A DNA stretch of 53,067 nucleotides, taken from NCBI GenBank assembly GCA_003222675.1, contig QHWT01000055.1, positions 111,210 to 164,276 of the forward strand. Direction: 5' to 3'. Of the stretch, positions 7,434-24,819 are shown one piece after another. Each line of letters starts with the position of its first letter. Positions within the stretch are counted from its first letter, which is position 1. The position numbers and the translations under genes are program-made. The stretch is from Acidobacteriota bacterium (GTDB lineage Bacteria > Acidobacteriota > Vicinamibacteria > Vicinamibacterales > 2-12-FULL-66-21). The notes under the pieces were generated by a model. That model made no database searches. It saw only the letters and a list, made by a program, of their open reading frames with translations, and had not been told where the DNA came from.

Positions 7434-9335
7434 GTGACGAACGGAATAATGAACGGCGCGATGAACCGCAGGGTGCTGATCCTTCTCGGTCCCGTTGCCG
7501 GTATTGTGATGTTCCTCGGCGTCGTCTGGATGGCGTCGGTCTTCGTGGGGCACAACGAATACAAAGAGCCGTACCGGGCGCCTGCGGCGACCGCCGACGC
7601 CACGCCTCGCGCAGAAGGTGTGGCCGCCGAGAAGGCCGCGGCGGAGACCAAGGCCAAGGCGACACCCTACACCGAGGCTGAGTACCGGAGGTTTCCCGGC
7701 GTCGGAAGCCGCGTGGCGATCTGGTCGGTCGCGCAGCTCCACCTGCTGTTCGCGGCATTCGTCCTTGCGGTTCCAATGTTCGCGTTCATCATCGAGGTGA
7801 TCGGCTACAAGACCGGAGATGAGCGATACGACCGGCTCGCGCACGAATTCACGAACCTCCTCTCGGTCTCCTTTTCGCTCACCGCGACCTTCGGGGCGTT
7901 CCTGACGTTCATGCTCATCATCTTGTATCCGAAGTTCACGAACTACTTGATGAGCGTGTTCTCGCCGACGTTTCTGCCATACGTGCTGCTCTTCTTCTTT
8001 GAGGCGTTCTTCCTCTACACCTATTACTACGGCTGGGGAAAGTTCCATCCGCTGGTTCATCTCGGCCTGGGGCTCGGACTCAACGTCGTGGGCACGGCGA
8101 TCATGATGATTGCCAATGCCTGGCTCACGTTCATGATGTCGCCGCGCGGGATCTCGGACACGGGGGCGGTTCTCTCCGTCCGCGACGCCATCTTCAACTA
8201 CACCTGGCTGCCGATCAACGTCCATCGGTTCATCGCGAACATCGCGTTCGGCGGATCGGTCGCCGCCGCCTACGCGGCCTTCAAGTTCCTGCAGGCGGAA
8301 ACCGACGAGGAGCGCGCGCACTACGACTGGATGGGATATATCGGCAACTTCGTCGCGATCAGCGCCTTCCTGCCGCTCCCCTTCGCCGGCTACTGGCTCG
8401 CGAAGGAGATTTACGCCTTCTCGCAGACGCTCGGGCTCACGATGATGGGTGGTGCCTTCTCGTGGCTCTTCATCATTCAGGCCGTCTTGATCGGGAATCT
8501 CTTCCTCGCTGCCAACTACTACCTCTGGCTCGGGATGGGACGGGTCGAGGGGGTGCAGCCGCTTCAGAAGTTCATCAAGTACCTTCTGATCGGCATCACC
8601 CTCTGCTTCGCAGTGTGGGCGACGCCGCGGTCGATCATCGCCACAGTCTCCGAAATCCGTGCGATGGGCGGATCGGCGCACCCGATTCTGGGCTACCTCG
8701 GTGTGATGTCTGCCAAGAACACCGCCGTGAACATCCTGATCCTCACGACCTTCATGAGTTTCCTTCTGTACCGCCGGACGGGGAAGGTCGCAACGGTGGC
8801 ATGGGCGAAGATCGGCCACGCGGCGCAGCTCGCGATATTCGCGACCGCCGCGTTCATCGTCATCTTTCTCGGCGTGTACGGGTACTTCGTCGAGGCGACC
8901 GTGCGGATCCGGCTTTCGGTGCCCCAGGTCAGCTCGGTCCTGATGGCGATGGTGTCGATCACCGCCATCGACGTCTTCCTCTTCCGCGGCGCGACGCGGA
9001 CGGGCGAAGTACGTTGGGGAAGGATCCCGCGGATCTCGCAATACGTGCTGATCTTCATCGCGGTCACGTTCACGTGGCTCATGGGACTCATGGGCTACGT
9101 TCGCTCGGGGCTCCGCCAGCACTGGCACGTCTACGGCGTCGTTCGGGACACGTCGCCGGACGCGTTCACGCCCACACTCGGCTTCGCGACGAAGGTCGTT
9201 TCCGTGACCGTGCTCGAGTTCTTCCTGCTGATCGGTGTTGTGTTCTGGATCGCGAGCCTGCACGACCGGCCCGACTTCCAGCGGCAGGCCAAGACGACCC
9301 GTCGGACCGGGGCGCATGAAGCGGAGCTGACATGA
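7434..9335 (+). CDS. Cytochrome bd-like oxidase subunit I (CydA-like), no CydB partner
   Basis: A 633-residue protein with at least a dozen predicted membrane helices. GTG at 7434 is preceded by GAGGG; ATG codons at 7449 and 7461 are alternatives. The segment from QLHLLFAAFVLAVPMF onward follows the CydA pattern. His103 lines up with the distal heme ligand, Glu190 in LLFFFEAFFLYTYYYGWGKF with the conserved glutamate of helix III, and His264 in INVHRFIANIAFGG with the second conserved histidine. The N-terminus has an extra helix and an Ala-rich linker. No cydB follows; instead there are three cytochrome c genes. It may be a bd-like oxidase fed by cytochrome c or ACIII, comparable to bd-like proteins reported in Nitrospira. 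Heme content and electron donor are inferences. Confidence 0.75.
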   Translation: MTNGIMNGAMNRRVLILLGPVAGIVMFLGVVWMASVFVGHNEYKEPYRAPAATADATPRAEGVAAEKAAAETKAKATPYTEAEYRRFPGVGSRVAIWSVAQLHLLFAAFVLAVPMFAFIIEVIGYKTGDERYDRLAHEFTNLLSVSFSLTATFGAFLTFMLIILYPKFTNYLMSVFSPTFLPYVLLFFFEAFFLYTYYYGWGKFHPLVHLGLGLGLNVVGTAIMMIANAWLTFMMSPRGISDTGAVLSVRDAIFNYTWLPINVHRFIANIAFGGSVAAAYAAFKFLQAETDEERAHYDWMGYIGNFVAISAFLPLPFAGYWLAKEIYAFSQTLGLTMMGGAFSWLFIIQAVLIGNLFLAANYYLWLGMGRVEGVQPLQKFIKYLLIGITLCFAVWATPRSIIATVSEIRAMGGSAHPILGYLGVMSAKNTAVNILILTTFMSFLLYRRTGKVATVAWAKIGHAAQLAIFATAAFIVIFLGVYGYFVEATVRIRLSVPQVSSVLMAMVSITAIDVFLFRGATRTGEVRWGRIPRISQYVLIFIAVTFTWLMGLMGYVRSGLRQHWHVYGVVRDTSPDAFTPTLGFATKVVSVTVLEFFLLIGVVFWIASLHDRPDFQRQAKTTRRTGAHEAELT

Positions 9336-9895
9336 CAGTCCCTCTCATTGCCCGCATCGGCGCGCTCGTCCTCGCAACGACCGCGTTCTATGGCTATGTC
9401 GGCCAGATGGTGCCGCAGAAGGAAGTGCAGCCTCCTGCCGAGGTCGTCCTGAAGAGCGACCTGACAACGGCGGACATGGTGAAGGTCGGGCGCGAGATCA
9501 TGGAGGGCAAAGGACTCTGCCTGACCTGTCACACGATAGGCAAGAGCGGGGCGCTGCGGTTCCCCGACCTCGCAGGGGTTGATGGCCGCGCGAAGAGCCG
9601 CGTCGCGGGCCTGAGCGATGTCGAGTACTTCGCCCAATCGATGTACGAACCGTGGGCTTTCATCGTGCCGGGATTCAATCCCGGGATGCCCCCGATCAAC
9701 AAGCCGCCCGTCGGCCTCACCGATCAGGAGATCCTCTGCGTGATCGCGTACCTGCAGACGCTTGGCGGCACACCAACGGTGACGCTCCAGACGAAACATC
9801 ATTACAACTCCGGCACGACAGCCGCTCCTCCGAGCCAGGGTGTGTCGCCGGGTGGAACGCAGCCTGAGGCTCCCCTCAAGGGGGAGAAACGATGA
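9332..9895 (+). CDS. Membrane-anchored monoheme cytochrome c
   Basis: A 187-residue protein with an N-terminal anchor (IARIGALVLATTAFYGYVG) and one heme motif, CLTCH, near residue 64. Downstream sequence FNPGMPPINKPP can supply the methionine ligand of a class I cytochrome c fold, and DQEILCVIAYLQTLGG is the usual C-terminal helix. It overlaps the bd-like gene and the next cytochrome gene by four bases each (ATGA). It is probably an electron donor or integral subunit for the CydA-like protein. The Ser/Pro-rich tail after residue 160 looks disordered. Confidence 0.8.
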   Translation: MTVPLIARIGALVLATTAFYGYVGQMVPQKEVQPPAEVVLKSDLTTADMVKVGREIMEGKGLCLTCHTIGKSGALRFPDLAGVDGRAKSRVAGLSDVEYFAQSMYEPWAFIVPGFNPGMPPINKPPVGLTDQEILCVIAYLQTLGGTPTVTLQTKHHYNSGTTAAPPSQGVSPGGTQPEAPLKGEKR

Positions 9896-10704
9896 AGATT
9901 CCAATCGTTCTCGCCGTGGCCGTTGCCTTCGGGCTGCTTCGGTTCCTGCGGGTCAAGCTGCTGATATGGGCCGCCGCATGGTGGATCGGCATTTACATCC
10001 TCCTGCGATTCGGATTCACGGCCCCGATTCCCTCGTCCGTCATCACGATCTACATGGGGATCGTCTCGATCGCCATCCTCGCCTACGTGTCCTCCAGCCA
10101 GGAGCGCCGCGACGAAATCTCCGGGCCGCTCATCCGGTTCATGACGGAGAAGCGGTACACCCTGCTCCTCGCCGTGGCCGTCGTCGCTATCCCGGCGCTC
10201 GCGGCCGCGAACGTCTATGTGAGGATGAATGTTTCCATCGAACCGCCGCTCTTCTCGCGCACGGTGCATCCCGCATCCCCTGCGGACATCACGGTTCACG
10301 ACAAGAGGATCGATCTCGATGCCGGAGAGAATCCCTTCCGTCATCTTGAGACGTCGAATCCGCAGGAGTTCCGCAAACACGTCGAGAACGGGCGCCGCGT
10401 CTATTACCAGAACTGCGTCTTCTGCCACGGCGATACCATGTCCGCCAACGGCATGTTCGTGCACGGGCTGGACCCGATCCCGACCAACTTCCACGACACG
10501 ATCGCGCAACTTCGCGAGACATTTCTGTTCTGGCGGATTTCCAAGGGGGGCCCCGGGCTGCCTGACGAGGGCGGTCCCTGGGACACAGCAATGCCCGCGT
10601 GGGAAAAGTTCCTGCAGGAGGACGAGATGTGGGATGCCGTCCTCTTTCTCTACGATTTTACGGGCCAAAGGCCTCGCGGCAGGGAGGAAGTCGCCACAAA
10701 ATGA
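9892..10704 (+). CDS. Cytochrome c with N-terminal membrane helices
   Basis: A 270-residue protein. The first 110 residues contain three to four hydrophobic helices (PIVLAVAVAFGLLRFL, LIWAAAWWIGIYILL, SSVITIYMGIVSIAIL, TLLLAVAVVAIPALAA). A periplasmic cytochrome c domain follows with one heme site, CVFCH, near residue 180, and candidate Met ligands in AMPAWEKFL. The multi-helix anchor on a monoheme c domain is unusual and suggests a structural subunit of the oxidase complex rather than a soluble carrier. Both ends overlap their neighbours by ATGA, so it should be made in a fixed ratio with them. Confidence 0.78.
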   Translation: MKIPIVLAVAVAFGLLRFLRVKLLIWAAAWWIGIYILLRFGFTAPIPSSVITIYMGIVSIAILAYVSSSQERRDEISGPLIRFMTEKRYTLLLAVAVVAIPALAAANVYVRMNVSIEPPLFSRTVHPASPADITVHDKRIDLDAGENPFRHLETSNPQEFRKHVENGRRVYYQNCVFCHGDTMSANGMFVHGLDPIPTNFHDTIAQLRETFLFWRISKGGPGLPDEGGPWDTAMPAWEKFLQEDEMWDAVLFLYDFTGQRPRGREEVATK

Positions 10705-12437
10705 GCTTCCGTTTGAGCGGGCCGCGCTCGTCTCTGTCGGCGTATGCCGCTGTCTTGATCGCCGTGTCGTGCGTCGCGACGACACGATCGGTGCGCGCGG
10801 CGGGCGCCCAAGCCGGCACCGCCGCGCAGCTCGAGCCGGGCAGGGTGATCTATCTCGAATACTGCGCGCAGTGCCACGGCGAGAAGGGTGACGGTGAAGG
10901 CTACGCCGCCTCGCATCTGCACCCGAGGCCCCGCAACTTCACCACCGGCAAGTTCAAGATTCGAACGACTCCCAACGGAGCGCTCCCGACGCACGAGGAT
11001 CTGGTCCGCATCATCAGGCGCGGCATGCCTTACACGTCGATGCCCGCCTGGCCCGACCTCTCCGACCAGGAAGTATCGGCGCTCGCCAACTTCATTACGA
11101 CGTTCTCTCCCGACTTCTCCAATCCTGAGAATGCTCCCAAGCCCGTTCCGCTCCCGAGCGCGCCGAGATCGACGAAAGAGTCAATCGACCAGGGAAAGAA
11201 ACTCTACGAGGAGAACGGTTGCGTAAAGTGCCACGGCGCGCTCGGGCGAGGTGATGGACCGTCGGCTCCGACCCTGGTAGACGACTGGGGCAATCCCATA
11301 CGTCCTGCGGACCTCACGCAACGCTGGACCTTCCGCGGAGGGTCGTCTCGCGAGGACATCTTCAGGACGATGAGCACAGGGCTCAACGGCACGCCGATGC
11401 CGTCGTTTCTCGACGCCCTGAAGGACGAGCAACGATGGGCGATCACAGACTTCATCGATTCCCTCTCGGAACCGAGCGGGCCAGGCTACACCAACGTCGT
11501 CATCACCAAGCACGTCGACGATCCGATCGACTTGGCCAAGGGGACAGCGAACTTTGAATCCGCCCGTGTCGCGCGCCTTCCGATCATCGGACAGATCACC
11601 GAGCCCGTACGCGAGTTCCATCCTCCGGCGACCTCGGTGACCGTGCAGGCCATCTACGATGCCGAGTCAATCGCGCTGCTCGTTCGATGGCACGACATGA
11701 GCGCAGAAAGAACGGGAAAAAACGGGCCGTCGCTTCCGGTCCCTCGGGAAGAGGAAGAGGAGGGGGCGCCGGCAGGTGTCCAGGTCGGAAAGAGTCCTTT
11801 CGGCGAGGAGGAAGTAGCGCCAACGGGTGCCCAGCAGGCCGGAAAGGATCCGTTTGCGGAGGAAGCGGCCGCGCCGTCCGGCCCGGCGTCCGAGTTCTCG
11901 GACGCCGTCGCGATCCAGATTCCCTCGCAGGTGCCGACTGGCACGCGCAAGCCTTACTTCATCTTCGGCGACGCCCAGAACCCGGTGGATCTCTGGTTCT
12001 TCGATCTGGCCCGCCCCGCTCCCCTTCAGTTCACCGCGAAAGGAAGCGCAGACATCGCGCCGAACGACACGGGCGATGTCACTGGTGTCGCGAGCTACGA
12101 GCAGGGAGAATGGTCGGTCATCTTCAAGCGGCCTCTTCGCCCGGCGTCAGGCGCCCCGTTCTCGCCCGGACAGTTCATGCCGGTCGCGCTCTCGGTCTGG
12201 GACGGGTTCTCACGCGAGCGTGGCAACAGGCGAGGTCTCACGGTCTGGTACTCCCTTTACGCCGAGCCAGAAAATATCCCGTCGGCCGTAGGGCCGATGG
12301 TGAAGACGGCGCTGCTCATTCTCGCCATCGAGCTGGCCATCATCGGCTGGGTGCGGTGGCGTTACGCGTCTCGCGGCCGCGAAGAACTCGGCGGTGCCCG
12401 CCTTCGCGCCGGAGGCGCTACGGCGGGTCCGCCGTAG
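10701..12437 (+). CDS. Diheme cytochrome c fused to ethylbenzene-dehydrogenase-like heme-binding domain
   Basis: A 578-residue protein with an N-terminal signal or anchor (SAYAAVLIAVSCVA), then two cytochrome c domains with CAQCH (near residue 54) and CVKCH (near residue 175). After about residue 290 comes a beta-rich domain resembling the gamma-subunit/EB_dh fold, with LLVRWHD, DAVAIQIP and NPVDLWFFD segments; such domains bind a b-type heme. The protein ends in a single membrane helix (TALLILAIELAIIGWV). Between the domains is an acidic linker made of two imperfect repeats (PFGEEE and PFAEEA). The final residues, ARLRAGGATAGPP, come from a family B repeat. It could collect electrons for the bd-like oxidase. 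The EB_dh assignment is from pattern memory. Confidence 0.75.
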   Translation: MSFRLSGPRSSLSAYAAVLIAVSCVATTRSVRAAGAQAGTAAQLEPGRVIYLEYCAQCHGEKGDGEGYAASHLHPRPRNFTTGKFKIRTTPNGALPTHEDLVRIIRRGMPYTSMPAWPDLSDQEVSALANFITTFSPDFSNPENAPKPVPLPSAPRSTKESIDQGKKLYEENGCVKCHGALGRGDGPSAPTLVDDWGNPIRPADLTQRWTFRGGSSREDIFRTMSTGLNGTPMPSFLDALKDEQRWAITDFIDSLSEPSGPGYTNVVITKHVDDPIDLAKGTANFESARVARLPIIGQITEPVREFHPPATSVTVQAIYDAESIALLVRWHDMSAERTGKNGPSLPVPREEEEEGAPAGVQVGKSPFGEEEVAPTGAQQAGKDPFAEEAAAPSGPASEFSDAVAIQIPSQVPTGTRKPYFIFGDAQNPVDLWFFDLARPAPLQFTAKGSADIAPNDTGDVTGVASYEQGEWSVIFKRPLRPASGAPFSPGQFMPVALSVWDGFSRERGNRRGLTVWYSLYAEPENIPSAVGPMVKTALLILAIELAIIGWVRWRYASRGREELGGARLRAGGATAGPP

Positions 12438-12506: not shown

Positions 12507-14738
12507 ATGTACAAGAGCATCTACGTTCCCGTCGATAACTCCGACCACTCCAACCGCGCCGTCGCCTGCGCCATCGCGCTGGGGAAGACCTTCACCGCAA
12601 AACTGGTCGGCTGCCACGTGTACGCGGCAGCCCTGCACGACTATCGATTCAGGCAGATGGAGTACACGCTGCCCGAGGAGTACCTCGACGAGGTGGAACT
12701 GGAGCGCCAGCGGAAGATCCACGATAGCCTCATCACGATGGGTCTCAAGCTGATCTCCGACAGCTATCTCGATGGCATGTCGCGCCTCTGTCGAGCGTCG
12801 AGCCTCGAGTTCGAGCCGAGGATGATGGACGGGAAGCATCACGTCGAGATCCTCAAGGATCTCGCCGGCTCACACCACGACCTGGTCGTGATCGGCGCGC
12901 TCGGGATCGGGCGCGCACGCGACAGCGTGATCGGATCGGTGTGCGAGCGCGTTGCGCGCCAGTCGGATCGTGATGTCTGGGTGGTGAAGCACGTCCCCGA
13001 GCCGGGCGAGCCGGAGCGCGACACGATCCTGGTCGGCATCGACGGAAGTCCCCAGTCCTTCGGCGCGCTGATGACCGCCGTAGAACTGGCCCGCGCGTTC
13101 GGCAAGAAGGTCGAGACGATCGCCGTGTACGATCCCTATCTGCACTACTCCGTCTTCAACGGCATCGTCAACGTCCTCACCGAGCAGGCGGCGAAGGTCT
13201 TCCGCTTCGAGGAGCAGAATCAGCTCCACGAGGAGATCATCGACACCGGGCTCGCGCAGATCTATCAGTCTCATCTCGAGGTGGGCGAGCGGATGGGGAC
13301 CGAGATGGGCATCACGATCAAGAAAACGCTCCTCGACGGCAAGCCCTTCCAGAAGATCCTCGACCACGCGCGCAAGACCAATCCTTGGCTCCTCGTGCTG
13401 GGGCGGATCGGCGTTGACAGCGCGCAGGACGAGAAGGGGCTGGGGAGCAACACGGAGAACATTCTCCGCGGCGCGCCCTGCGATGTCCTCCTTTCGACGC
13501 GCCTCGAGGTGCCGCGGCTCGACCTGCGCGCCGAGGAGAGCGTCCGATGGACGCCCGAAGCCGAGGAGCGGATGAAGCACGTGCCGGAGCAGGTCAAGGG
13601 GATCGCCCGCACGGGCGTCCTTCGCCTGGCGCTCGAGAAGGGGCATTCGGTGGTCACGAGCGCAGTGATTGACGAAGCGATGGATCGGTTCATGCCGAAG
13701 CGCGCGTCGGATGCGACCAAGGCGCTGGCCGAGGCGGTGGCCCTCGAGCGGGCGAGGTCTCGCCCCGTGTCGATGTGCCGCGCCTGCGGCGTCACGGCCA
13801 CGCAGACCGACCCGGTGCGCTGCACCGTCTGCGGGGCCGCGGATTTCGAGGTGATCTCCCAGGAGATGATCGAGAAGATCGCGGCGGTGGAGGGAGGTCT
13901 TCAGGAAGAGACCACCTACGACGGGCGCAAGCTTCGCTGGACGGAGGAGGCCAGGAAGGGCCTCTGGACCATGAAGAACGCCTATCAGCGCCGCCGCACC
14001 AAGGCGCGTGTCGAGAAGCGCGCGCGCATGAAGAAGCTCGACGCGATCACGCTCGAATTCGCCCGTCAGGTGATCGAGGAGGAGACTGGAGCGCCGCTCG
14101 AGATTCTTTCTAGACCGGGGGGCTTCGCCCCGCCGGACCCCCCAACGCCGTCGCTCGCGGGGGCCCCGGGGCCCCGCTCTGCTCCGGCGGGGCGCGCCCT
14201 TGGCGCGCCTGGCGCTCACGCCTCCACGGACGCGACCCAGCCCCGGTTGATTGCGCGCGACGAGCGAAACAACCCGCTGATCTCGACATTCGAGTGGACG
14301 AACGAAGCCGCGCAGAGGATCTTCCGGGTTCCGGCCGGGTTCATGCGGAACAAAACACAGGAGAGGATCGAGGAGCTTGCGCGGGAGCGCGCTGCGGCCT
14401 GCCGCGACGAAGCCTTTGGCGAAGGCGGCACGGCGATCGACCTTGCGCTCGTCGAGGAGGGCATCGAGATCGGTAAGCGGATGATGGCCGAGATGATCGC
14501 GACCTACCCGTCACAGGGCAAGAGCCCTGGAGCCGCAGCCTCGGGTGCGCCCGCTCCGGAAGCCCCGGGGGCAGCTCGGGACGCGGGGGCAACGCCGAGT
14601 CCGGCGGCCCCGGCCGCGAAGGGGAACGGGTACCTCAACGAAGTGAGCTCGCTATCGGCGAGGGCATCCGGGCTTGGCGCTCTCGGCGATGTTCCTCGTG
14701 GGACCGTGCCTGACGAACGGGCTCCTCGCCAGGGTTGA
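12507..14738 (+). CDS. Fusion protein: two Usp domains, PCP_red-like domains and a rubredoxin-like zinc motif
   Basis: A 743-residue cytoplasmic protein; the ATG follows GCGGAGGA. Residues 1-165 and about 172-335 are universal stress protein domains (IYVPVDNSDHSNRA, TILVGIDGSPQSF). About 346-397 (WTPEAEERMKHVPEQVKG...VIDEAMDRF) matches the PCP_red domain of DPOR subunit B. Residues 422-448 hold CRACG...CTVCG, a rubredoxin-like metal site. Two more PCP_red-like stretches start with WTEEARKGLW (near 477) and WTNEAAQRIF (near 595). Residues about 536-572 (RPGGFAPPDPPT...) are a family A repeat inserted between the second and third. The Pro/Ala tail is probably disordered. It opens the accessory block behind the oxidase operon and may bind nucleotide and a tetrapyrrole or metal; that role is inferred. 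Confidence 0.78.
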   Translation: MYKSIYVPVDNSDHSNRAVACAIALGKTFTAKLVGCHVYAAALHDYRFRQMEYTLPEEYLDEVELERQRKIHDSLITMGLKLISDSYLDGMSRLCRASSLEFEPRMMDGKHHVEILKDLAGSHHDLVVIGALGIGRARDSVIGSVCERVARQSDRDVWVVKHVPEPGEPERDTILVGIDGSPQSFGALMTAVELARAFGKKVETIAVYDPYLHYSVFNGIVNVLTEQAAKVFRFEEQNQLHEEIIDTGLAQIYQSHLEVGERMGTEMGITIKKTLLDGKPFQKILDHARKTNPWLLVLGRIGVDSAQDEKGLGSNTENILRGAPCDVLLSTRLEVPRLDLRAEESVRWTPEAEERMKHVPEQVKGIARTGVLRLALEKGHSVVTSAVIDEAMDRFMPKRASDATKALAEAVALERARSRPVSMCRACGVTATQTDPVRCTVCGAADFEVISQEMIEKIAAVEGGLQEETTYDGRKLRWTEEARKGLWTMKNAYQRRRTKARVEKRARMKKLDAITLEFARQVIEEETGAPLEILSRPGGFAPPDPPTPSLAGAPGPRSAPAGRALGAPGAHASTDATQPRLIARDERNNPLISTFEWTNEAAQRIFRVPAGFMRNKTQERIEELARERAAACRDEAFGEGGTAIDLALVEEGIEIGKRMMAEMIATYPSQGKSPGAAASGAPAPEAPGAARDAGATPSPAAPAAKGNGYLNEVSSLSARASGLGALGDVPRGTVPDERAPRQG
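14112..14223 (-). repeat. Family A element in the Usp/PCP_red gene
   Basis: Begins TAGACCGGGGGGCTTCGCCC, the reverse complement of the standard terminus, and is read in frame as RPGGFAPPDPP. The remainder is GC-rich and palindromic (GGGGCCCCGGGGCCCC and GGCGCGCC pairs). It separates two PCP_red-like stretches without breaking the frame. Confidence 0.8.
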
Positions 14739-14932
14739 TCCATCGAACGCTGTCTGTAAGGCCGTGAGTGTCGTCTCAGTGTCGGGCAATGTTCACCTGT
14801 CACGTACGACCTCACGCCGAGGACGCGGCGAGCCTTTGTACAAATTGAAATTCTCTGCGCGCTCTGCGACCTCAGCGTGAGTACGCCCGTGGTACGCAAC
14901 AGCTCCGGGCTGCACCTGTAGGTTTCGATACT
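14739..14932. other. Intergenic spacer between Usp fusion and GNAT gene
   Basis: 194 bp with lower GC than its surroundings. It contains TTGTACAAATTGAAATTCTC followed by a CTCTGCG-rich stretch, but I see no open frame, terminator or clear promoter. The GNAT gene may be transcribed separately from the Usp gene. Confidence 0.4.
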
Positions 14933-16153
14933 ATGTCAGCGTATCGCTTCTGCCGTACGGACGACATTGCGCTTCTCGTTGACGCGCTGAATCGCTGCTG
15001 GTCTCCGTACTCTCCCGACGAACCGCCCATGACGCCGGCCGCGTTCAAGCGCTCCATCCGCGACCTTCAGGTCTGGTGCAGCAGCTGCATGGTCGCCTTC
15101 TCGGACTCGGACCCGGTCGGTGTCCTGATCGGCGCCAAGCGACCCTCCGGTACCCTCGTCCACAGGATCGCGGTCCATCCCGATCATCGGCGACAGGGTC
15201 ACGGCCGTCACCTGCTCGCGTCGCTCGGCTCGAAGCTCGCGATTCTCGGCCCCCCCCGAATCATCGCCGAAGTCCCCGAGACTCTCGCCCCTGCCTGCGA
15301 GCTGTTCAGCGCAAGCGGATATGTCCAGGAAGCCCTCCTGACGGACTACGTCCTGCAGGGTGAAGAGAATGATGTGCGGGAGCCGGCGAACGAGCGACAG
15401 CGAGTGAGCCACGCGAGCGGAGCGGGGAACGGGGGCCCCGCGAACGAGCGTGTAGGGGGATCCGGCGGGGCGAAGCCCCCCGGACTACACGATGGCCGGT
15501 TCGTGATCCCTGTCACGGTCGACGATCTCGCCGCCAATGGTCTCCTTGGAGACGCTCATCCGCAGGTTTGCTGGAAGCGCTCGGTCGAGACCCTCACGGC
15601 AAGGAAGGACGACATCGCAGGACTCGCCGTCGCTTCCGACGAGCGAATCGAGGCCTATCTCCTTTACTTGAAGCGCGGAGTGGGCCCGGAGGGGAACGCA
15701 GAGGCGGGTCCGCGAGCGAGCGCCCCGATGGCGGAGATTGTGTCGCTCCGCACTTTTATCGAGGACGATGGAGCCGGTCTGAAGCAACTGCTCTCTCAAC
15801 TCGGCGCGCGAGGAGCGGGAATTACTTGTGCGCGTGCCCGCGAACGGAGCGGAGCGAGCTGCGAAGAGCGAGCGCAGCGCAGTGAATCCTGGTCAGAGCG
15901 AACGAGCGCAGCGAGTGAGCCACGCGAGCCGCCTCCGCCGCAAGGCGGCTACGGCGGGCCAAGGCGGAGCGGGAATTACTTGTGCGCGTGCCCGCGAGCG
16001 GAGCGCGGGGCCCATGGGGCCCCCGCGAGCAAGCGTGTAGGGGGGTCCGGCGGGGCGAAGCCCCCCGGTTTAATAATGAAGCGCTACCACGACGACATCG
16101 TCGGCGAGGGCGGGTCCAGAATCCTGGTCAGAGCGAACGAGCGCAGCGAGTGA
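14933..16153 (+). CDS. GNAT-family acetyltransferase-like protein with repeat-derived inserts and tail
   Basis: The open frame is 406 residues, but only about 1-145 and 185-293 look native. The N-terminal part has the GNAT acetyl-CoA signature, VHRIAVHPDHRRQGHGRHLL (near residues 72-91), and FSASGYVQEALLTDYVL. The second half (VIPVTVDDLAANGLLG, IASDERIEAYLLY-like) resembles a second acyltransferase-like lobe. A family A element (about 152-184, VGGSGGAKPPGL) separates them. After residue about 293 the frame runs into repeat units and a duplicated copy of the mrp start (MKRYHDDIVGEGGSRIL), so the native C-terminus is probably lost or displaced. It sits directly before mrp. The substrate of the acetyltransferase is unknown. 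Confidence 0.65.
   Translation: MSAYRFCRTDDIALLVDALNRCWSPYSPDEPPMTPAAFKRSIRDLQVWCSSCMVAFSDSDPVGVLIGAKRPSGTLVHRIAVHPDHRRQGHGRHLLASLGSKLAILGPPRIIAEVPETLAPACELFSASGYVQEALLTDYVLQGEENDVREPANERQRVSHASGAGNGGPANERVGGSGGAKPPGLHDGRFVIPVTVDDLAANGLLGDAHPQVCWKRSVETLTARKDDIAGLAVASDERIEAYLLYLKRGVGPEGNAEAGPRASAPMAEIVSLRTFIEDDGAGLKQLLSQLGARGAGITCARARERSGASCEERAQRSESWSERTSAASEPREPPPPQGGYGGPRRSGNYLCACPRAERGAHGAPASKRVGGSGGAKPPGLIMKRYHDDIVGEGGSRILVRANERSE
15385..15486 (+). repeat. Family A element in the GNAT gene
   Basis: Starts with the AGCGAGTGAGCCACGCGAGC segment, continues through a GGGGGCCCC palindrome and ends GGCGAAGCCCCCCGGACTAC. It is read as VGGSGGAKPPGL in frame between the two halves of the acetyltransferase. 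Confidence 0.8.
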
Positions 16154-16670
16154 GCCACGCGAGCCGCCTCCGCCGCAAGGCGGCTACGGCGGCCAAGGCG
16201 GAGCGGGAATTACTTGTGCGCGTGCCCGCGAACGGAGCGGAGCGAGCTGCGAAGAGCGAGCGCAGCGCAGTGAATCCTGGTCAGAGCGAACGAGCGCAGC
16301 GAGTGAGCCACGCGAGCCGCCTCCGCCGCAAGGCGGCTACGGCGGGCCAAGGCGGAGCGGGAATTACTTGTGCGCGTGCCCGCGACGCAGCGCAGTGAAT
16401 CCTGGTCAGAGCGAACGAGCGCAGCGAGTGAGCCACGCGAGCCGCCTCCGCCGCAAGGCGGCTACGGCGGGCCAAGGCGGAGCGGGAATTACTTGTGCGC
16501 GTGCCCGCGAACGGAGCGGAGCGAGCTGCGAAGAGCGAGCGCAGCGCAGTGAATCCTGGTCAGAGCGAACGAGCGCAGCGAGTGAGCCACGCGAGCGGAG
16601 CGGGGCCCATGGGGCCCCCGCGAGCAAGCGTGTAGGGGGGTCCGGCGGGGCGAAGCCCCCCGGTTTAATA
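15812..16670 (+). repeat. Amplified repeat block (154-bp units) between GNAT and mrp
   Basis: The marker GCGGGAATTACTTGTGCGCG occurs at 15815, 15969, 16203, 16357 and 16482. Spacings of 154, 234, 154 and 125 bp show a 154-bp unit, one interrupted copy and one copy with a 29-bp deletion. Each full unit contains a family B core (CCGCAAGGCGGCTACGGCGG) and the AGCGAGTGAGCCACGCGAGC segment of family A. Two units end in a complete family A terminus followed by ATGAAGCGCTACCACGAC, at 16075 and 16671. The first is an aborted copy of the mrp start and the second is the real gene. Confidence 0.85.
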
Positions 16671-17672
16671 ATGAAGCGCTACCACGACATCGTCGGCGAC
16701 GGAGGGTCCAGAATCCTCGAGCAGGTTGCCGAGCAGCGCACCCGCATCACCGACGGGCTCGCCGGGGTGCGTCATCTCGTCGCCGTGGGTTCCGGCAAGG
16801 GGGGAGTCGGCAAGAGCACCTTGACGCTGCATCTCGCGGGCGCTCTGCGCGCCCGGGGGCTTCGGATTGCGATCCTGGACGCGGACTTCAACGGCCCCTC
16901 ACAGGCGCGCATGGCAGGTGTCCAGGGGGCACTGTTCGTTCCCGGCAGTCACAAGGTCGCGCTTCCGCGGACCGGGAACGGGATCGCGGTCTTCTCGATG
17001 GGCTCGCTGATCCCGGAGTCGGAGGCGCTCGAGTTCGAGAGCGCGGCGCACGGAGACTCCCATACGTGGCGCGCCACGAGGGAGTTCGCTCTCCTCGGCG
17101 AGATCCTCGGGTCGTTCGACTGGGGAGCGCTCGATCTGCTGATGTTCGATCTGCCGCCGGGAGCCGAGCGGACCGTCCAGTACGCCGATTTTCTCGGGCC
17201 GCGGACCTCGTTCCTGCTCGTGACGATCCCTTCCGAGGTGGCACGGGGCGTGGTCGCGCGCTCGGTGGCAGCTCTGTCGAAGGGACCCAATCGCCTCCTC
17301 GGTTACGTCGAGAACATGAGCGGCTACTACTGCCGCGACTGCAACGCCATCAAGCCACTCTTTTCAGACCGGGGGGCTTCGCCCCGCCGGACCCCCCTAC
17401 GCGCTCACTCGCGGGGACCCCATGATCCCCGCTCCGTTCGCGCGGGGTGCGCCGTTGGCGCACCCGAACCATCGGGCCTGGAGATTCCCTGCCTCGGGAC
17501 CGTCCCATTCGATCCCGAGCTTGCACGGCACTGCGATCGGGGGATCCCTCTCGCGGAACTGCCCGAAACACCCGTTGGCCTGGCCCTGGAGTACGTTGCG
17601 CTGCAACTTCTGGACAGTCTCGAAACGACAGGGAGCATTCCCGATGAAGTTCCTCTGCATCCCCTGCGATAG
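16671..17672 (+). CDS. mrp: Mrp/NBP35-type P-loop ATPase with in-frame repeat insert
   Basis: A 333-residue MinD/Mrp-like ATPase. The deviant Walker A GSGKGGVGKST lies at residues 40-50, followed by ILDADFNGPSQ, the Mrp switch region; FDLPPGAERTVQ is the second conserved loop. CRDC at 221-224 matches the CxxC that binds a bridging Fe-S cluster in Mrp/Nbp35 carriers. Residues about 232-265 are a family A element read in a different frame (DRGASPRRTP), placed between the CxxC and LGTVPFDPELARHCD. The family normally delivers Fe-S clusters or acts on cofactor biogenesis. It overlaps the next gene by 29 bp. Here it may serve the radical SAM and rubredoxin-like proteins next to it, which is inference. 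The ATG at 16671 is chosen because upstream sequence is repeat. Confidence 0.85.
   Translation: MKRYHDIVGDGGSRILEQVAEQRTRITDGLAGVRHLVAVGSGKGGVGKSTLTLHLAGALRARGLRIAILDADFNGPSQARMAGVQGALFVPGSHKVALPRTGNGIAVFSMGSLIPESEALEFESAAHGDSHTWRATREFALLGEILGSFDWGALDLLMFDLPPGAERTVQYADFLGPRTSFLLVTIPSEVARGVVARSVAALSKGPNRLLGYVENMSGYYCRDCNAIKPLFSDRGASPRRTPLRAHSRGPHDPRSVRAGCAVGAPEPSGLEIPCLGTVPFDPELARHCDRGIPLAELPETPVGLALEYVALQLLDSLETTGSIPDEVPLHPLR
17366..17465 (-). repeat. Family A element in mrp
   Basis: Starts CAGACCGGGGGGCTTCGCCC (reverse orientation) and continues through a GGGGACCCC...GGGGTGCGCC palindromic part. It is translated in the +1 frame relative to the copy in the Usp gene yet contains no stop, so the element is open in more than one frame. 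Confidence 0.8.
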
Positions 17673-18177
17673 CCCGATGAAGCTGCAAACCATCGGTCCG
17701 CCAGAGGGCGGCTCGCTCTCGGTCGTCTACTCTTGTCCTGAGTGCGGCTACGAGATCGCCATGCTCACCAATGCGTACGAAACACAGATCGTCCAGTCAC
17801 TCGGCGTGCGGATCGGCCCTGCGGTCGGCGCGGAGCCGTGGAATGGGTCCGGCGCCGGCTGCCCGTTCACCGCGATGATTCCATCGACTCCGGACGAAGG
17901 GAGCAAGGATCTCGCACCAGCGAGCGAGCGCGAGCGAGTGAGCCACGCGAACGGAGCGGGGCCAGGGGGCCCCGCGAGTGAGCGTGTAGGGGGGACCGGC
18001 GGGGCGAAGCCCCCCGGTCTAAGCTGGACTGCCGCTGCGGAAATGCGGCTCGCGAACATTCCCGCGTTCGTCCGCCCCATGGCGCGGACCGGCATCGAGA
18101 GTTTCGCCCGAGAGCGGGGGGCCCTCGAAGTGGACGAGAAGATCCTGGACGCGGCGCGCGAGTTTTTCGGCATGTAA
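17644..18177 (+). CDS. Zinc-ribbon protein with C-terminal PCP_red domain
   Basis: A 177-residue protein whose ATG lies inside the end of mrp. Two cysteine pairs, CIPC (5-8) and CPECG (31-34), form a zinc ribbon or rubredoxin-like site; another Cys is at GAGCPF near residue 72. Residues about 92-127 are a family A element (ERVGGTGGAKPPGL). The C-terminal 50 residues (SWTAAAEMRLANIPAFVRPM, IESFARE, VDEKILDAAREFF) form a clear PCP_red domain, the module found at the C-terminus of protochlorophyllide reductase subunit B. The same domain ends the next gene. Its role is unknown; a carrier or chaperone for a tetrapyrrole or metal cofactor is my inference. Confidence 0.78.
   Translation: MKFLCIPCDSPMKLQTIGPPEGGSLSVVYSCPECGYEIAMLTNAYETQIVQSLGVRIGPAVGAEPWNGSGAGCPFTAMIPSTPDEGSKDLAPASERERVSHANGAGPGGPASERVGGTGGAKPPGLSWTAAAEMRLANIPAFVRPMARTGIESFARERGALEVDEKILDAAREFFGM
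17918..18022 (+). repeat. Family A element in the zinc-ribbon/PCP_red gene
   Basis: A complete forward copy: a GAGCGAGCGCGAGCGAGTGA start, a CCAGGGGGCCCCGCGAG palindrome, and the terminus GGGGCGAAGCCCCCCGGTCT followed by AA. It lies exactly in the linker between zinc ribbon and PCP_red domain. Confidence 0.85.
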
Positions 18178-18194
18178 TTCGTCGCTTGATTCAA

Positions 18195-19745
18195 ATGAAC
18201 ATGCCGAATATGAACGGGACCCCCTTCGCCCGGCCCTACGTCGTCTCCTGGAACCTCACTTACCGCTGCAACCTCGCCTGCGAGCACTGCTATCTCGACG
18301 CCGGGGGCGCGCCTCGGGTCGACACGGAGAACTTCGCGGACCGGAGCGAGCTCGACACCGACGAGTGCTTCAGGGTCATCGACGAACTCGCCGCCTTCGC
18401 GCCTGAATGCCTGACAATCCTGACGGGCGGCGAGCCGCTTCTGCGGCGCGACATCCTCGAGATCGTCCGGCGCGCGTCGGAGCGCCGACTTTGGGTCGTC
18501 GTCGGCACCAACGGCGTGAGCATCACGGAGAACCTGGCGAGCCGCCTCGCGGAGGCCGGAGCGCGCGGGCTCTCGCTCTCGCTCGATGCTCTCGATCCCG
18601 ATCGTCACGACCGCTTCAGGAGAGTGCGTGGCGCGTGGCGGAACACGGTGGAAGGAGCGGAGATTCTCAACAGGACCGGGCTCCCTTTCATCGTGCAGAC
18701 GACCGCGGGCTCGCACAATCTCGGCGAGCTCGAAGCGATCGCCGACTTCGCGCACGATCGGCTCGCCGCCAAGGTTTGGAACCTCTACTTCCTGGTGCCG
18801 ACGGGGCGCGGGCAGTTCGTGTCGGACATCACCCCCGCGCAGTACGACGAGGTCCTCGCCTCGCTCTACCGGATCCAGAGGAAGTACGATCGCCGGATGC
18901 TCGTGAACGCGAAGTGTGCTCCGCACTTCATCAAGACCGTTCTGGAGAGCGCGAGCGGGGGTGGGGCCCCGCGAGCACTGGAGAATGCTGGCGCCGAGAC
19001 CGATCCGATCCCGACGGATGCCCGCCTTCGCCAAGGCTACGGCGGGCAAGCCGAATCGGCGATGCCCGGTATGTCCCAGATCAGGACCTACTCCGGAGGG
19101 GCCGGCGGGTGCCCGGCGGGGACCCATTACATGGGGATACGGCCGAACGGAGATGTCACCCCTTGCCCCTATCTCCCGGTCTTCGCGGGCACTCTGCGCA
19201 ACTCGAGTCTCGCGGACCTCTGGACGTCCTCAGGGCTGTTCGTCGGCATTCGCCGCCGCACCTCGCTCGGCGGGCGATGCGGCGAGTGCGAGATGAACGG
19301 CCACTGTGGGGGCTGCCGCGCCCGAGCCTACGGGATGACCGGCGATCTGATGGCTGAAGATCCGCTCTGCACCCACACGCCCGGCAAATTCGTCGGGTCT
19401 CCCCTTCTCACGCTCATTGGCGCCGGAGCGGAGCGGGGCTATGGGGTCCCCGCGAGCGACGGCGATGCCGGGGTCCCCAACGCGCCTGCGCGTTGGAGTG
19501 GAGGTGGGGGGTCCGGCGGGGCGAAGCCACCCGGGCTAACGATCGAGTATGGCCCCGACTCGCCAACGAGCATCGCATGGGACGATGCGGCCGCTGCGCG
19601 CATGAGGAAAATCCCCGCGTTCGTCCGGGGCATGGTTGTCAGGGCGGTCGAGGACTCCTGCCGCAGGAACGGCATCGGCCGCGTCACTGCGGAGGAGTTG
19701 GAGAAGATCCGCGCGCGGATGCCGACGCCGAAACTTTTCGGCTAG
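18195..19745 (+). CDS. Radical SAM/SPASM protein, NirJ/AhbC-like, with C-terminal PCP_red domain
   Basis: A 516-residue protein. SWNLTYRCNLACEHCYLDAG carries the CxxxCxxC cluster site (Cys25, Cys29, Cys32), followed by TILTGGEPLLRRD and LSLSLDALD. KVWNLYFLVPTGRGQ is characteristic of the heme-modifying branch (NirJ, AhbC/AhbD). The SPASM region has CPAGTHYMGIRPNGDVTPCP, CGECEMNGHCGGCRARAYG and CTH, giving cysteines for auxiliary clusters. Two repeat tracts lie near residues 252-287 and a family A element near 409-448. The last 60 residues (IAWDDAAAARMRKIPAFVRG) form a PCP_red domain. Known relatives remove or change propionate groups of siroheme-derived tetrapyrroles; the substrate here is unknown. 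An upstream TTG at 18186 is also possible. Confidence 0.85.
   Translation: MNMPNMNGTPFARPYVVSWNLTYRCNLACEHCYLDAGGAPRVDTENFADRSELDTDECFRVIDELAAFAPECLTILTGGEPLLRRDILEIVRRASERRLWVVVGTNGVSITENLASRLAEAGARGLSLSLDALDPDRHDRFRRVRGAWRNTVEGAEILNRTGLPFIVQTTAGSHNLGELEAIADFAHDRLAAKVWNLYFLVPTGRGQFVSDITPAQYDEVLASLYRIQRKYDRRMLVNAKCAPHFIKTVLESASGGGAPRALENAGAETDPIPTDARLRQGYGGQAESAMPGMSQIRTYSGGAGGCPAGTHYMGIRPNGDVTPCPYLPVFAGTLRNSSLADLWTSSGLFVGIRRRTSLGGRCGECEMNGHCGGCRARAYGMTGDLMAEDPLCTHTPGKFVGSPLLTLIGAGAERGYGVPASDGDAGVPNAPARWSGGGGSGGAKPPGLTIEYGPDSPTSIAWDDAAAARMRKIPAFVRGMVVRAVEDSCRRNGIGRVTAEELEKIRARMPTPKLFG
18950..19055 (+). repeat. Partial family A plus family B repeat inside the radical SAM gene
   Basis: A GC-rich fragment (GCGAGCGGGGGTGGGGCCCC) is followed by the family B core GCCCGCCTTCGCCAAGGCTA plus CGGCGGGCA. 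Both are read through in frame (ESASGGGAPRA, then ARLRQGYGGQA), ahead of the SPASM cysteines. Confidence 0.65.
19421..19539 (+). repeat. Family A element in the radical SAM gene
   Basis: A forward copy ending GGCGAAGCCACCCGGGCTAA, with an extra internal GATGCCGGGGTCCCC stretch. It separates the SPASM region from the PCP_red domain and is read as GGSGGAKPPGL. Confidence 0.8.
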
Positions 19746-19748
19746 CTG

Positions 19749-19846
19749 CGGCGAGCGGAACGGAGCGGGGCGGAAGGCCCCGCGAGTGGAGCGAGCCGAG
19801 GGGGTCCGGGGGAAGCGCCGAGTCTTCGAGGCGATATTCCCCCGGC
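19749..19846. repeat. Degenerate family A element between convergent operons
   Basis: Fills most of the gap between the radical SAM stop and the coxB stop. It keeps GCGAGCGGAACGGAGCGGGG, the GGGGCGGAAGGCCCC hairpin and a CCCCCGGCCTAC end. By position and hairpin content it may help end transcription from both sides, but no T-run is present. Confidence 0.5.
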
Positions 19847-20647
19847 CTACTTAAAGACGTCCGATTCGCCCTTCAGCTTTTCCTCTTCGGCATCCATCCA
19901 CTTCTGGAACTCCTCGGCGGTCTGGACGGTGACAAATCCCCGCATCCGATAATGGCCCAGACCGCAGAGCTGCGCGCAGGCAATCTCGTACTGGAACTCG
20001 GGATTCCCTGTCCGGATCCGCATCTCCGCGGTCGTCACGTTGGGCACGAACCAGATGGGAATCGTGAGGCCCGGCACGGCGTCCTGCTTCACGCGAAACT
20101 CGGGCACGCCGAAGCTGTGGATCATGTCCTTGCTTCTGAGCCTCACGATAATCGGCTTGTTCACGGGCAGATAAAGCTGATTGAGAGTCGTGACGTCGTC
20201 CTTCGCGGCAGGATCGGAGCGATCGAGTCCCAGGGGGTTCGACTGGAGGTCGATCAGCTTGATGTCCGTGCGGCCGAATTTCCTGTCGGGACCGGCATAG
20301 TGGACGTTCCAGGCGAACTGCTCGCCGGTTACCTGAACGACCAGCGCTTCGCTCTCCGGTGGAACGTGGTCGACCCTCGCGGCCCAGATCGGGATCGAGA
20401 ATGCGAACAGCAGAATCGCTTCGACCACAGCCACGCCGATCTCGGAATACTTCGACGTGTTCGACTTGACCCCCGTGTAGTTCGCCACCGGATGCCGCGA
20501 TCCCCGGAAACGGATCAGGGCGTAGGCAAAGAACCCTCCCCACCCGACGAACAGGATGAGCATGAACACGTGCGTCCAGCCGATCAGGCTGTCGATCTGC
20601 CCGCCATGAGCCGACGCGAGCGCCGGGAGTCCGAGCCACTCAGTCAT
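19847..20647 (-). CDS. coxB: Cytochrome c oxidase subunit II
   Basis: A 266-residue protein with two N-terminal helices (HVFMLILFVGWGGFFAYALI and VAVVEAILLFAFSIPIWA) and a periplasmic CuA domain. The copper ligands are seen in HSFGVPEFRVKQDAVPG and CAQLCGLGHYRM (Cys-x3-Cys-x3-His-x2-Met). There is no fused cytochrome c, so electrons must come from a separate carrier or directly from ACIII. It is last in the minus-strand oxidase operon rather than first, and its ATG overlaps the preceding stop (ATGA). Confidence 0.93.
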   Translation of the reverse strand: MTEWLGLPALASAHGGQIDSLIGWTHVFMLILFVGWGGFFAYALIRFRGSRHPVANYTGVKSNTSKYSEIGVAVVEAILLFAFSIPIWAARVDHVPPESEALVVQVTGEQFAWNVHYAGPDRKFGRTDIKLIDLQSNPLGLDRSDPAAKDDVTTLNQLYLPVNKPIIVRLRSKDMIHSFGVPEFRVKQDAVPGLTIPIWFVPNVTTAEMRIRTGNPEFQYEIACAQLCGLGHYRMRGFVTVQTAEEFQKWMDAEEEKLKGESDVFK

Positions 20648-21150
20648 GATGTTTTCGACGCCCCTTGGAGCTCCGACCATTCGGTGTCGAGCTCGACGTC
20701 CGCGATGCGCTTCGCGCGCTTGCGGAGATAGAGAAAGAAGGCAACGAACCCGCCCTGCACCGCAAGCAGGACGCCGAGCATCACCAGGACGCCGAGCTTC
20801 GTCCCGTCGACCATCGAGGTCTCCTCGGCCCCGAAGCACATCGGGCAGGCGAGGACGCTCGAGCCCCCGCCGATCACCACTGCCGCCGCCGTGAAGGCCC
20901 GTTGCAACCCCCAGTAGCGTGTCGTTCTTGTCCGGGGGGCTTCGCCCCGCCGGTCCCCCCTATACTTCTCTGGATCGCCGGGGACCCCTGCACCCCGGCT
21001 GGCTCGCTCCATTACGCGGCCGTGCACGGGCCGCTCCATTCCGCTCGCGTGCTCGCGGGGACCGTTTCCCCGCTCCGCCTTGTGCACCGTAGCTGCGAGC
21101 AGCGAAGGTGCATCGCGTGGCTCACTCGCCGCGCTCGTTCGCGCTTTCAT
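20644..21150 (-). CDS. Small CPMCFGA membrane protein of the oxidase operon, N-terminus interrupted by a repeat
   Basis: The reading frame of 168 residues starts at ATG 21150, which overlaps the upstream stop and follows GACGAGGA. Immediately after MKA a family A element encodes about 73 residues (SAASEPRD..., ending in GDRRGEAPRTRTT). The native-looking part is only the last about 75 residues: YWGLQRAFTAAAVV, LACPMCFGAEET and a membrane helix LGVLVMLGVLLAVQGGFVAF, then a basic RKRAKR cytoplasmic end. Small proteins with CPMCF and one helix do occur in ACIII/oxidase clusters. A role in copper or heme assembly is a guess. If the element is not tolerated, this gene is dead. Confidence 0.6.
   Translation of the reverse strand: MKARTSAASEPRDAPSLLAATVHKAERGNGPREHASGMERPVHGRVMERASRGAGVPGDPEKYRGDRRGEAPRTRTTRYWGLQRAFTAAAVVIGGGSSVLACPMCFGAEETSMVDGTKLGVLVMLGVLLAVQGGFVAFFLYLRKRAKRIADVELDTEWSELQGASKTS
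20931..21147 (-). repeat. Extended family A element after the start codon of the CPMCFGA gene
   Basis: Terminus TCCGGGGGGCTTCGCCCCGC at 20931, then palindromic sequence, then GTGGCTCACTCGCCGCGCTC near 21118. At about 217 bp it is about twice the usual element length and is open in the gene frame. Confidence 0.7.
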
Positions 21151-24040: not shown

Positions 24041-24769
24041 CTACTTCGCGGCGGGGACGGCGAACTTGAAGTTCTGGGTCTTCGTATCGCTGGCGCCAAC
24101 CGTGACCGAGGCGGTCTGCGTCCCCAGCTTCTCGTGCCAGGCCGTGATCTCGTAGGTCCCCGGATCGAGGCCCGAAATCGTGAACTTCCCGTCCGTGCTC
24201 GTCGCCGAGAAGAAGGGATGGGTGAAGACGGCCATGTAGGCGCTCATCCATGGGTGGACGTCGCACTTGATGTGGAAGACCCCCTCCTCTTTGTCGAACT
24301 TCGTGGTCGCCTCCTTGACCGTCGCCGGCATTGCCCGATTGAAGGCCGGGTTGATCTTGGGAAGCGTGTGGATATTGTGGAGGACGCCGTCGGAGTTGAG
24401 GATCTTGTAGGTCTGACCGACCATGATCCCCATCACGTGCGGCTTGTACTGACAGCCATTCTGATCAAGGACCACCGGAGTGCTGGGAACGGGCCATTTC
24501 TTCCCGGGCGGGAGCCCCTTCGAGACCCAGACCAGGATGTTCGCCATGGTGTTGCCGTTGCCGAGGACCAGCGCCTCGTTCGGCACCGGTGCCGAGTGCT
24601 TCTTGGCGCACACGGGGTCGGCGTCCATGGCGAGCGGCCTGAGAGCGGGGACTTTCCCGTCGAAGGTGACGGTTCCGGTGATGGACGAGGCGGCGAAAGC
24701 CACGCCGGGCCACGTCGCCGCTACTATCAAACTCGCCGCCAGGGACAACCGGGTCGCCGTCCTGCGCAT
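24041..24769 (-). CDS. Secreted cupredoxin-like protein with carboxypeptidase-regulatory-like region
   Basis: A 242-residue protein with a signal peptide (RLSLAASLIVAATWPGVAFA). The core has NSDGVLHNIHTL and HIKCDVHPWMSAYM: a His followed by Cys-x2-His-x2-Met, the ligand pattern of type 1 copper (plastocyanin/azurin-like) sites. A C-terminal beta domain (DGKFTISGLDPGTYEITAWH) resembles the carboxypeptidase regulatory fold. It lies 19 bp before coxA. A periplasmic copper electron carrier between ACIII and the oxidase is an attractive reading, since CoxB lacks a fused cytochrome c. A copper delivery or structural role is the alternative. Copper binding has been inferred from motif only. Confidence 0.75.
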   Translation of the reverse strand: MRRTATRLSLAASLIVAATWPGVAFAASSITGTVTFDGKVPALRPLAMDADPVCAKKHSAPVPNEALVLGNGNTMANILVWVSKGLPPGKKWPVPSTPVVLDQNGCQYKPHVMGIMVGQTYKILNSDGVLHNIHTLPKINPAFNRAMPATVKEATTKFDKEEGVFHIKCDVHPWMSAYMAVFTHPFFSATSTDGKFTISGLDPGTYEITAWHEKLGTQTASVTVGASDTKTQNFKFAVPAAK

Positions 24770-24819
24770 CGTGGTCTCCTTCGTGAAGGAATGCGATTCT
24801 CGTGCGAACTCTACACCGG

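Follow-up and report, generated by a model that had tools for sequence, protein, structure and literature searches.

The PCP_red domain is known from chlorophyll synthesis; in the BchB/ChlB subunit of dark-operative protochlorophyllide reductase (DPOR) it is preceded by a nitrogenase-like domain (Oxidored_nitro). Radical SAM enzymes of the SPASM branch belong to the nir operon (NirJ), which serves heme d1, and to the siroheme-dependent heme pathway (AhbC/AhbD). A cluster described as "bd-like oxidase + alternative NxrC + cytochromes c" is known in Nitrospira, Nitrospina and anammox bacteria from excerpts of PMC6606698 and PMC3578206; excerpts of these two papers and of PMC10839748 and PMC12342949 give the composition of the bd-like complex as unconfirmed and its role as enigmatic or undetermined. 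We have analyzed a stretch of 53,067 nt (the window, hereafter) of contig QHWT01000055.1 (GCA_003222675.1), from an Acidobacteriota genome of 7.16 Mb. In this window, five genes of the + strand (12507-19745), three of them encoding PCP_red proteins, stand beside a cluster with the same CydA-like, EB_dh-diheme and cytochrome c genes.

The bd-like cluster is thus already known. The five-gene module next to it would belong to a familiar type, that of operons maturing the cofactor of a respiratory complex, with a content that carries no name in the searchable portions of the literature. We consider it somewhat probable that the module matures the bd-like complex, modifying or delivering a heme-type tetrapyrrole and Fe-S clusters, a chemistry that we deduce from the protein families involved. 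The gene content of the module is established, its gene order and PCP_red domain recur, and in several phyla it co-occurs with the CydA-like gene.

The five genes of the module

The first gene (12507-14738) begins 69 bases after the diheme cytochrome c-EB_dh gene and encodes a 743-residue protein (P0001) with, according to Pfam and motif inspection, the architecture Usp-Usp-PCP_red-zinc ribbon-(degenerate PCP_red), where Usp is the universal stress protein domain. Its first PCP_red domain lies at 13548-13679 (40.4 bits) and the degenerate one at 14295-14393 (28.1 bits, E = 1.9e-5, under the cut-off). The second gene (14933-16153) encodes a GNAT-family protein, whose frame ends in inserted repeats and a duplicate of the beginning of Mrp. 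The third (16671-17672) encodes an Mrp/ApbC-type P-loop ATPase with a CxxC motif; it has a repeat inside, and its true start is probably 16671. The fourth (17644-18177), overlapping the Mrp gene by 29 bases, encodes a 177-residue protein (P0004) formed by a zinc ribbon (two CxxC) and a PCP_red domain (18025-18159, 57.7 bits). The last gene (18195-19745) encodes a radical SAM/SPASM enzyme (P0005) with a C-terminal PCP_red domain (19578-19709, 46.2 bits). The gene spacing suggests that the module is co-transcribed; promoter and terminator scans of the region were uninformative.

As whole proteins, P0001, P0004 and P0005 scored 62.1, 54.1 and 42.5 bits with PF08369 (gathering cut-off, 32.5 bits), in agreement with the original prediction, which had assigned PCP_red to these three. 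Pfam also confirmed the Usp (two stretches), ParA/Mrp (158.4 bits), GNAT, Radical_SAM and SPASM domains, so that the predicted content of Mrp-type ATPase, GNAT protein and radical SAM/SPASM enzyme was upheld, and the KVWNLYFLVPTGRGQ signature was present in the radical SAM protein as described. The zinc ribbons that had been proposed were recognizable by their CxxC pairs and hardly by Pfam, whose only return was a weak match of the first protein to HypA.

The motif counts in homologous frames include repeated loci, duplicates having been removed for the radical SAM proteins only. A G-2X-G-9X-G(S/T)-like motif was found in all 68 frames homologous to the Usp protein. Among the 90 Mrp frames, 79 had the CxxC and 53 the exact GxGKGGVGKS, and the window sequence has both P-loop and CxxC. 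The module protein shares these two features with the Mrp/ApbC Fe-S carriers, but it reached neither the MrpORP nor the ApbC equivalog cut-off (137.6 of 450 and 101.6 of 348 bits, respectively). A Cys-Pro-Phe motif occurred in 22 of 25 zinc-ribbon proteins; heme-regulatory motifs can be Cys-Pro motifs, which makes it a weak hint of a heme link.

Searching the whole host genome for PCP_red (E ≤ 0.001) gave four matches, all in the module; hence no BchB was found in this genome, and chlorophyll synthesis was ruled out. Among 14 control genomes, PCP_red was found in Synechococcus only. The module proteins have the PCP_red domain and its predicted fold in common with BchB/ChlB of DPOR, but Pfam detected no Oxidored_nitro domain in any of the five, and BchB models matched them near their ends only (best score, 39.2 of 509 bits).

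The main text of PMC6606698 has no instance of 'radical', 'universal stress' or 'protochlorophyllide', and that of PMC3578206 none of 'radical SAM', 'universal stress' or 'protochlorophyllide'; 'universal stress' is also absent from the Kuenenia NXR paper (PMC8387239). According to the available part of PMC3578206, the cluster has a putative zinc-finger protein as well as proteins of unknown function; a relative of the zinc-ribbon protein may be among them. Literature searches on PCP_red returned nothing relevant, and no such module was found in the portions of the literature searched.

Association with the CydA-like gene across genomes

Of 297 Acidobacteriota genomes, 29 had both PCP_red and a strong CydA-like match, 4 had PCP_red only, 1 the CydA-like match only and 263 neither (33 with PCP_red and 30 with the CydA-like match in all; Fisher p = 9e-35, kinship ignored). 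For 148 Nitrospirota genomes the corresponding numbers were 55, 23, 0 and 70 (p = 3e-22, kinship likewise ignored). Over both phylum draws, a strong CydA-like match was accompanied by PCP_red in 84 of 85 genomes. The threshold for a strong match was set after the scores had been seen and retained 30 of the 116 Acidobacteriota with any match (E ≤ 0.001) and 55 of 90 Nitrospirota; the gap at this threshold was wide, from 365 down to 90 bits in Acidobacteriota and from a best E of 2.5e-161 to 2.0e-23 in Nitrospirota. The module is strongly associated with the CydA-like gene. This suggests that the bd-like complex needs special assembly and, probably, a special cofactor, and the module provides a handle for testing both needs.

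The Acidobacteriota genome with the CydA-like match only (G226) is 77% complete. Among the four with PCP_red only, two (G096 and G165) carry BchB-type proteins (Oxidored_nitro plus PCP_red; loci L009 and L014), one (G123) has a PCP_red protein of BchB-type length and one (G028) a short fragment of a radical SAM-PCP_red protein. Six of the 23 Nitrospirota with PCP_red only were examined: Pfam identified Chlor_dismutase fusions in G339 and G321, G331 had a lone 65-residue PCP_red frame, and no PCP_red frame was called in G346.

ActD, the marker of alternative complex III (ACIII), was found in all 21 Acidobacteriota tested that carry the module and in 15 of 17 tested without it; outside this phylum, only 1 of 12 tested genomes with the module had it. 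These counts make the ACIII link a feature of the phylum, whereas the bd-like link holds across phyla, and ACIII was rejected as the client of the module. The genome survey proposed with the original prediction was therefore positive for the bd-like/EB_dh cluster and negative for ACIII. The prediction itself, that the block makes, carries or inserts a modified heme or metal cofactor for the oxidase, the EB_dh cytochrome or ACIII, is supported in part; its putative heme chemistry is suggested by the enzyme families considered below.

We have also compared gene order, using the radical SAM alignment against one genome per species. This gave 216 relatives, the best 80 of which were kept; together with the window they form 81 stretches, many of them incomplete. 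Many gene labels in the relatives come from profiles built on 5-15 members, with Pfam as a check on some of the key labels, and the greedy calling of open reading frames missed some genes. By title, the best 80 belong to Acidobacteria (some oddly titled, e.g. Acidimicrobiia), Poribacteria, Elusimicrobia, one Verrucomicrobia, Nitrospinia, Nitrospiria and Planctomycetes including Brocadia and Kuenenia. In Acidobacteriota metagenome-assembled genomes (e.g. L041, L048, L055 and L056), the recurrent order was CydA-like, cytochromes c, EB_dh, Usp-PCP_red, GNAT, Mrp, zinc ribbon-PCP_red and radical SAM-PCP_red, with COX and NrfD genes behind the module on the opposite strand. Over the 81 stretches, Mrp closely preceded zinc ribbon-PCP_red on the same strand 43 times, zinc ribbon-PCP_red preceded radical SAM-PCP_red 37 times, and EB_dh preceded Usp-PCP_red 18 times.

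A contiguous variant was seen in Candidatus Kutchimonas (L103; Usp-PCP_red and CydA-like genes confirmed with Pfam), and another in a Nitrospirota locus (L233), with CydA-like, cytochrome c, cytochrome c-EB_dh, Usp-PCP_red and a radical SAM gene with three PCP_red domains. In Brocadia pituitae (L189), the bd-like cluster closes with a Usp-PCP_red gene, after which come EB_dh and 4Fe-4S genes, presumably nxrC- and nxrB-like. According to the custom profiles, a Usp-PCP_red gene likewise ends the bd-like cluster of Kuenenia hertensis (L191). In Nitrospirota locus L229, a gene with two PCP_red domains lies ~1.1 kb before a CydA-like gene. A CydA-like match was present in 14 of 15 genomes chosen from radical SAM loci.

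Candidate chemistry of the radical SAM enzyme and PCP_red

Among the NCBIfam models, the radical SAM enzyme scored best with AhbD (TIGR04545, 281.9 bits), NirJ2 (270 bits) and TIGR04053 (253 bits, near full-length), against 117.6 bits for PqqE. The NLYFLV.TGRG motif and eight auxiliary cysteines were invariant across 15 aligned homologues. The full SPASM motif of AhbD, as quoted in an excerpt of PMC10452713, is C-X20-33-C-X17-C-X36-37-C-X2-C-X5-C-X2-C-X17-35-C. Out of 88 distinct full-length radical SAM-PCP_red proteins, 87 had CxxxCxxC, 76 the strict AhbD spacing and 86 a looser form of it; in the window protein, an insert makes the first SPASM gap longer than the strict motif permits. The PCP_red domain was still present in enzymes only 42-45% identical to that of the window (L038, L047 and L050).

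Plasmid sequences gave matches in 508 records, and of the 25 listed (33-36% identity), 22 were annotated as TIGR04053. One such gene, on a Thermus plasmid, has nirS on one side and cytochrome c-552 on the other; for Thermus, PMC5748679 (in part) places NirJ next to NirS, together with the cytochrome NirM. The module enzyme matches the TIGR04053 family over nearly its full length, but the two members examined were without PCP_red, and the full SPASM cysteine pattern did not fit them. Compared with the nir operon and the AhbC/AhbD pathway, the module has a radical SAM/SPASM enzyme from the branch to which NirJ and AhbC/AhbD belong, with AhbD-type spacing of the auxiliary cysteines and a gene adjoining a respiratory complex that would need the product. 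It differs in the C-terminal PCP_red, in the Usp, Mrp and zinc-ribbon partners and in the likely client, which is the bd-like complex and not cytochrome cd1.

PCP_red was also found at the N terminus of Chlor_dismutase (chlorite-dismutase/ChdC) proteins in Nitrospinota and Nitrospirota (L196:6337-7293, L223:2035-3060 and L224:1551-2678) and, in Brocadia pituitae, fused to a siroheme-reductase-type NIR_SIR domain and Fer4 ferredoxin motifs (L190:8834-9724). Through these fusions PCP_red keeps company with tetrapyrrole enzymes, the tetrapyrrole-related families that bear it being four: Chlor_dismutase, NIR_SIR, BchB and the radical SAM enzyme. Of the 12 loci with Planctomycetes, Brocadia or Kuenenia in their titles, 11 encoded a radical SAM enzyme with three PCP_red domains, several of these loci being from named anammox bacteria (L107, L109, L113, L117, L118, L120, L122, L125, L127, L128 and L130; L122 was checked with Pfam). 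Tandem arrays of four (L204:6710-7717) and three (L195:5558-6388) PCP_red domains were observed in Nitrospirota and Nitrospinota, respectively. One further protein (L044:14224-15144), encoded near Usp and EB_dh genes, combines PCP_red with a weak PNPOx_N match; heme degradation is known for some PNPOx-like proteins.

Two structure models were built, with the radical SAM-PCP_red and zinc-ribbon proteins of relatives as queries. The zinc-ribbon protein model had a mean predicted local distance difference test score (pLDDT) of 74.5 and a predicted template modeling score (pTM) of 0.40, with block means >90 in the PCP_red part (residues 91-140) and <50 in the linker. This PCP_red part showed the helical PCP_red fold and matched the solved PCP_red structure 2kru (root-mean-square deviation of 1.0, target TM of 0.81, Foldseek E of only 6.8e-3), as well as 2l09 and ChlB (2ynm_D). 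The contact of PCP_red with the tetrapyrrole in DPOR, which had been given as background, was not confirmed in the literature available in part. The zinc-ribbon portion of the model gave weak structural matches only, e.g. to ZPR1 and NrdR. The radical SAM-PCP_red model reached a pLDDT of 87.5 and a pTM of 0.88.

The PCP_red fusions, the AhbD-type SPASM spacing and the nearest plasmid relatives, including the one beside Thermus nirS, strengthened the tetrapyrrole reading. If it is correct, the radical SAM/SPASM enzyme, with its catalytic and two AhbD-type auxiliary clusters, would alter side chains of an iron-tetrapyrrole such as coproheme or a different precursor of heme. The PCP_red domains of the radical SAM, zinc-ribbon and Usp proteins could bind the tetrapyrrole or each other, so that the product would be relayed and not freed, and the Usp protein might couple a step to ATP. 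Mrp would provide the radical SAM enzyme and, where present, an Fe-S subunit with their Fe-S clusters, and the finished cofactor would be inserted into the CydA-like or EB_dh subunit; the GNAT protein may be a lineage-specific extra. A bolder version, which we regard as tentative and rather doubtful, is that the bd-like complex of Acidobacteriota, nitrite oxidisers and anammox bacteria receives an unrecognised cofactor of heme type from a dedicated tetrapyrrole relay, with PCP_red as its common carrier or docking domain and as a general tag of coproheme and siroheme enzymes. The module would also lend PCP_red a wide role beyond photosynthesis.

Several observations weigh against maturation of the bd-like complex with a tetrapyrrole. 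The co-occurrence was uncorrected for phylogeny, and 11 of the 29 Acidobacteriota positives are from one genus (14 families overall). Nitrospirota genomes G313 and G319 have radical SAM and Usp genes but no strong CydA-like match, and G310 was the one of the 15 genomes chosen from radical SAM loci without any. A CydA-like or EB_dh gene was present in only 29 of the 81 stretches (many incomplete), the radical SAM gene lies apart from the rest in L035, L038, L047, L050 and L053, and the CydA-like gene of L233 is interrupted by a stop. The enzyme reached none of the equivalog cut-offs (AhbD, 281.9 of 500; NirJ2, 270 of 500; TIGR04053, 253 of 395 bits). The closest solved structures to its model were mainly the peptide-modifying SPASM enzymes PqqE, SkfB and SuiB, with no AhbD or NirJ structure among the matches listed, so a peptide substrate is possible. 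PCP_red is also joined to Usp and zinc-ribbon domains, which are not tetrapyrrole enzymes, and its consensus has no His or Cys for iron ligation. The last three points, together with the tandem arrays, would suit an explanation without any tetrapyrrole, in which the module assembles the complex by other means: PCP_red serves for protein docking only, the substrate of the radical SAM enzyme is a peptide side chain in one of the subunits, as for PqqE- and SuiB-type enzymes, and Mrp loads Fe-S clusters. We consider this unlikely, since AhbD, NirJ2 and TIGR04053 scored far above PqqE and the ChdC/Cld- and siroheme-reductase-type fusions would be left unexplained.

The best NCBIfam model and the strict SPASM spacing in 76 of 88 proteins are also compatible with a general AhbD-like heme b synthase, acting on coproheme and serving the entire cell, with the PCP_red proteins as general heme chaperones and the genes sited by the biggest consumer. 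The fusion of PCP_red to the chlorite-dismutase/ChdC family points the same way, HemQ/ChdC members performing the coproheme-to-heme b step (PMC5157759, in part). Two anammox genomes (G297 and G298) had neither a PF06778 match nor a HemY-type match over the cut-off, and the radical SAM enzyme could therefore still be the heme b synthase there. However, the module tracks the CydA-like gene, and among 30 module-bearing genomes tested, a PF06778 match (often partial) was present in 17 and a HemY-type oxidase above the cut-off in 26, the window genome having both; in 18 module-free Acidobacteriota, the numbers were 12 and 10. The module thus does not stand in for those enzymes, which weakened this explanation, and we hold it to be improbable. 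Far less probable still is that in Acidobacteriota the module serves the neighboring ACIII or COX-type oxidase: it does lie between the Mo/Fe-S (ActB-like) gene and the COX/NrfD/ActD genes, but module-bearing cells without ACIII were seen, the ActD count outside Acidobacteriota bearing on ACIII only. Maturation of the bd-like complex is the reading that we favor.

Flanking loci and inserted repeats

Heme-rich loci lie on both sides of the module, as had been noted from the sequence. On the left, all on the + strand, are genes for a molybdopterin-dinucleotide/4Fe-4S fusion protein (3693-6776), presumably ActB-like, a cytochrome c (6773-7423), the CydA-like membrane protein that is the likely client (7434-9335), two more cytochromes c (9332-9895 and 9892-10704) and the diheme cytochrome c-EB_dh protein of the alternative NxrC type (10599-12437), whose start may be further downstream. 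The CydA-like protein matched Cyt_bd_oxida_I with 84.8 bits (cut-off, 26.2 bits). Its H264 and E190 were invariant in 13 aligned rows, and its N-terminal His was replaced by Lys in one; these three residues may correspond to canonical heme ligands of cytochrome bd. The label OR-N type can be given to this protein from gene context and excerpts of PMC10839748 and PMC12342949 only. In locus L040 (15349-18018), a CydA-like protein shares its frame with two cytochrome c motifs.

On the right, Pfam identified COX1, NrfD, ActD, COX2, COX3 and COX4. The five-heme cytochrome and Mo/Fe-S protein on the left (3067-6776, + strand) and the NrfD and ActD on the right (24879-28228, - strand) look like one ACIII split by the module. 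Proteins of the CarboxypepD_reg/fn3 type adjoin the bd-like cluster or COX genes (L189:6079-6828, L198:11573-12331, L198:4376-5245 and window 24041-24910), and one of them has a weak plastocyanin match. An identity as SCO was dropped on their Pfam domains; they are possibly the cupredoxin-like proteins mentioned in the available part of PMC3578206.

The window contains eight copies (≤3 mismatches) of a 29-base GC-rich element, all within 14115-20960; shuffled sequences had none. Six copies lie inside frames of module genes, which they leave unbroken, one just before the Mrp start and one in the right-hand oxidase locus. Exact 23-base copies of the element numbered 14 genome-wide, 5 of them in this region. 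Such GC-rich inserts have lengthened several of the module proteins. Rickettsia has in-frame palindromic elements, of which the present element is reminiscent. At 15812-16717, the GNAT frame contains tandem repeats of 125 bases as well as a duplicate of the sequence around the Mrp start, and the junction looks rearranged.

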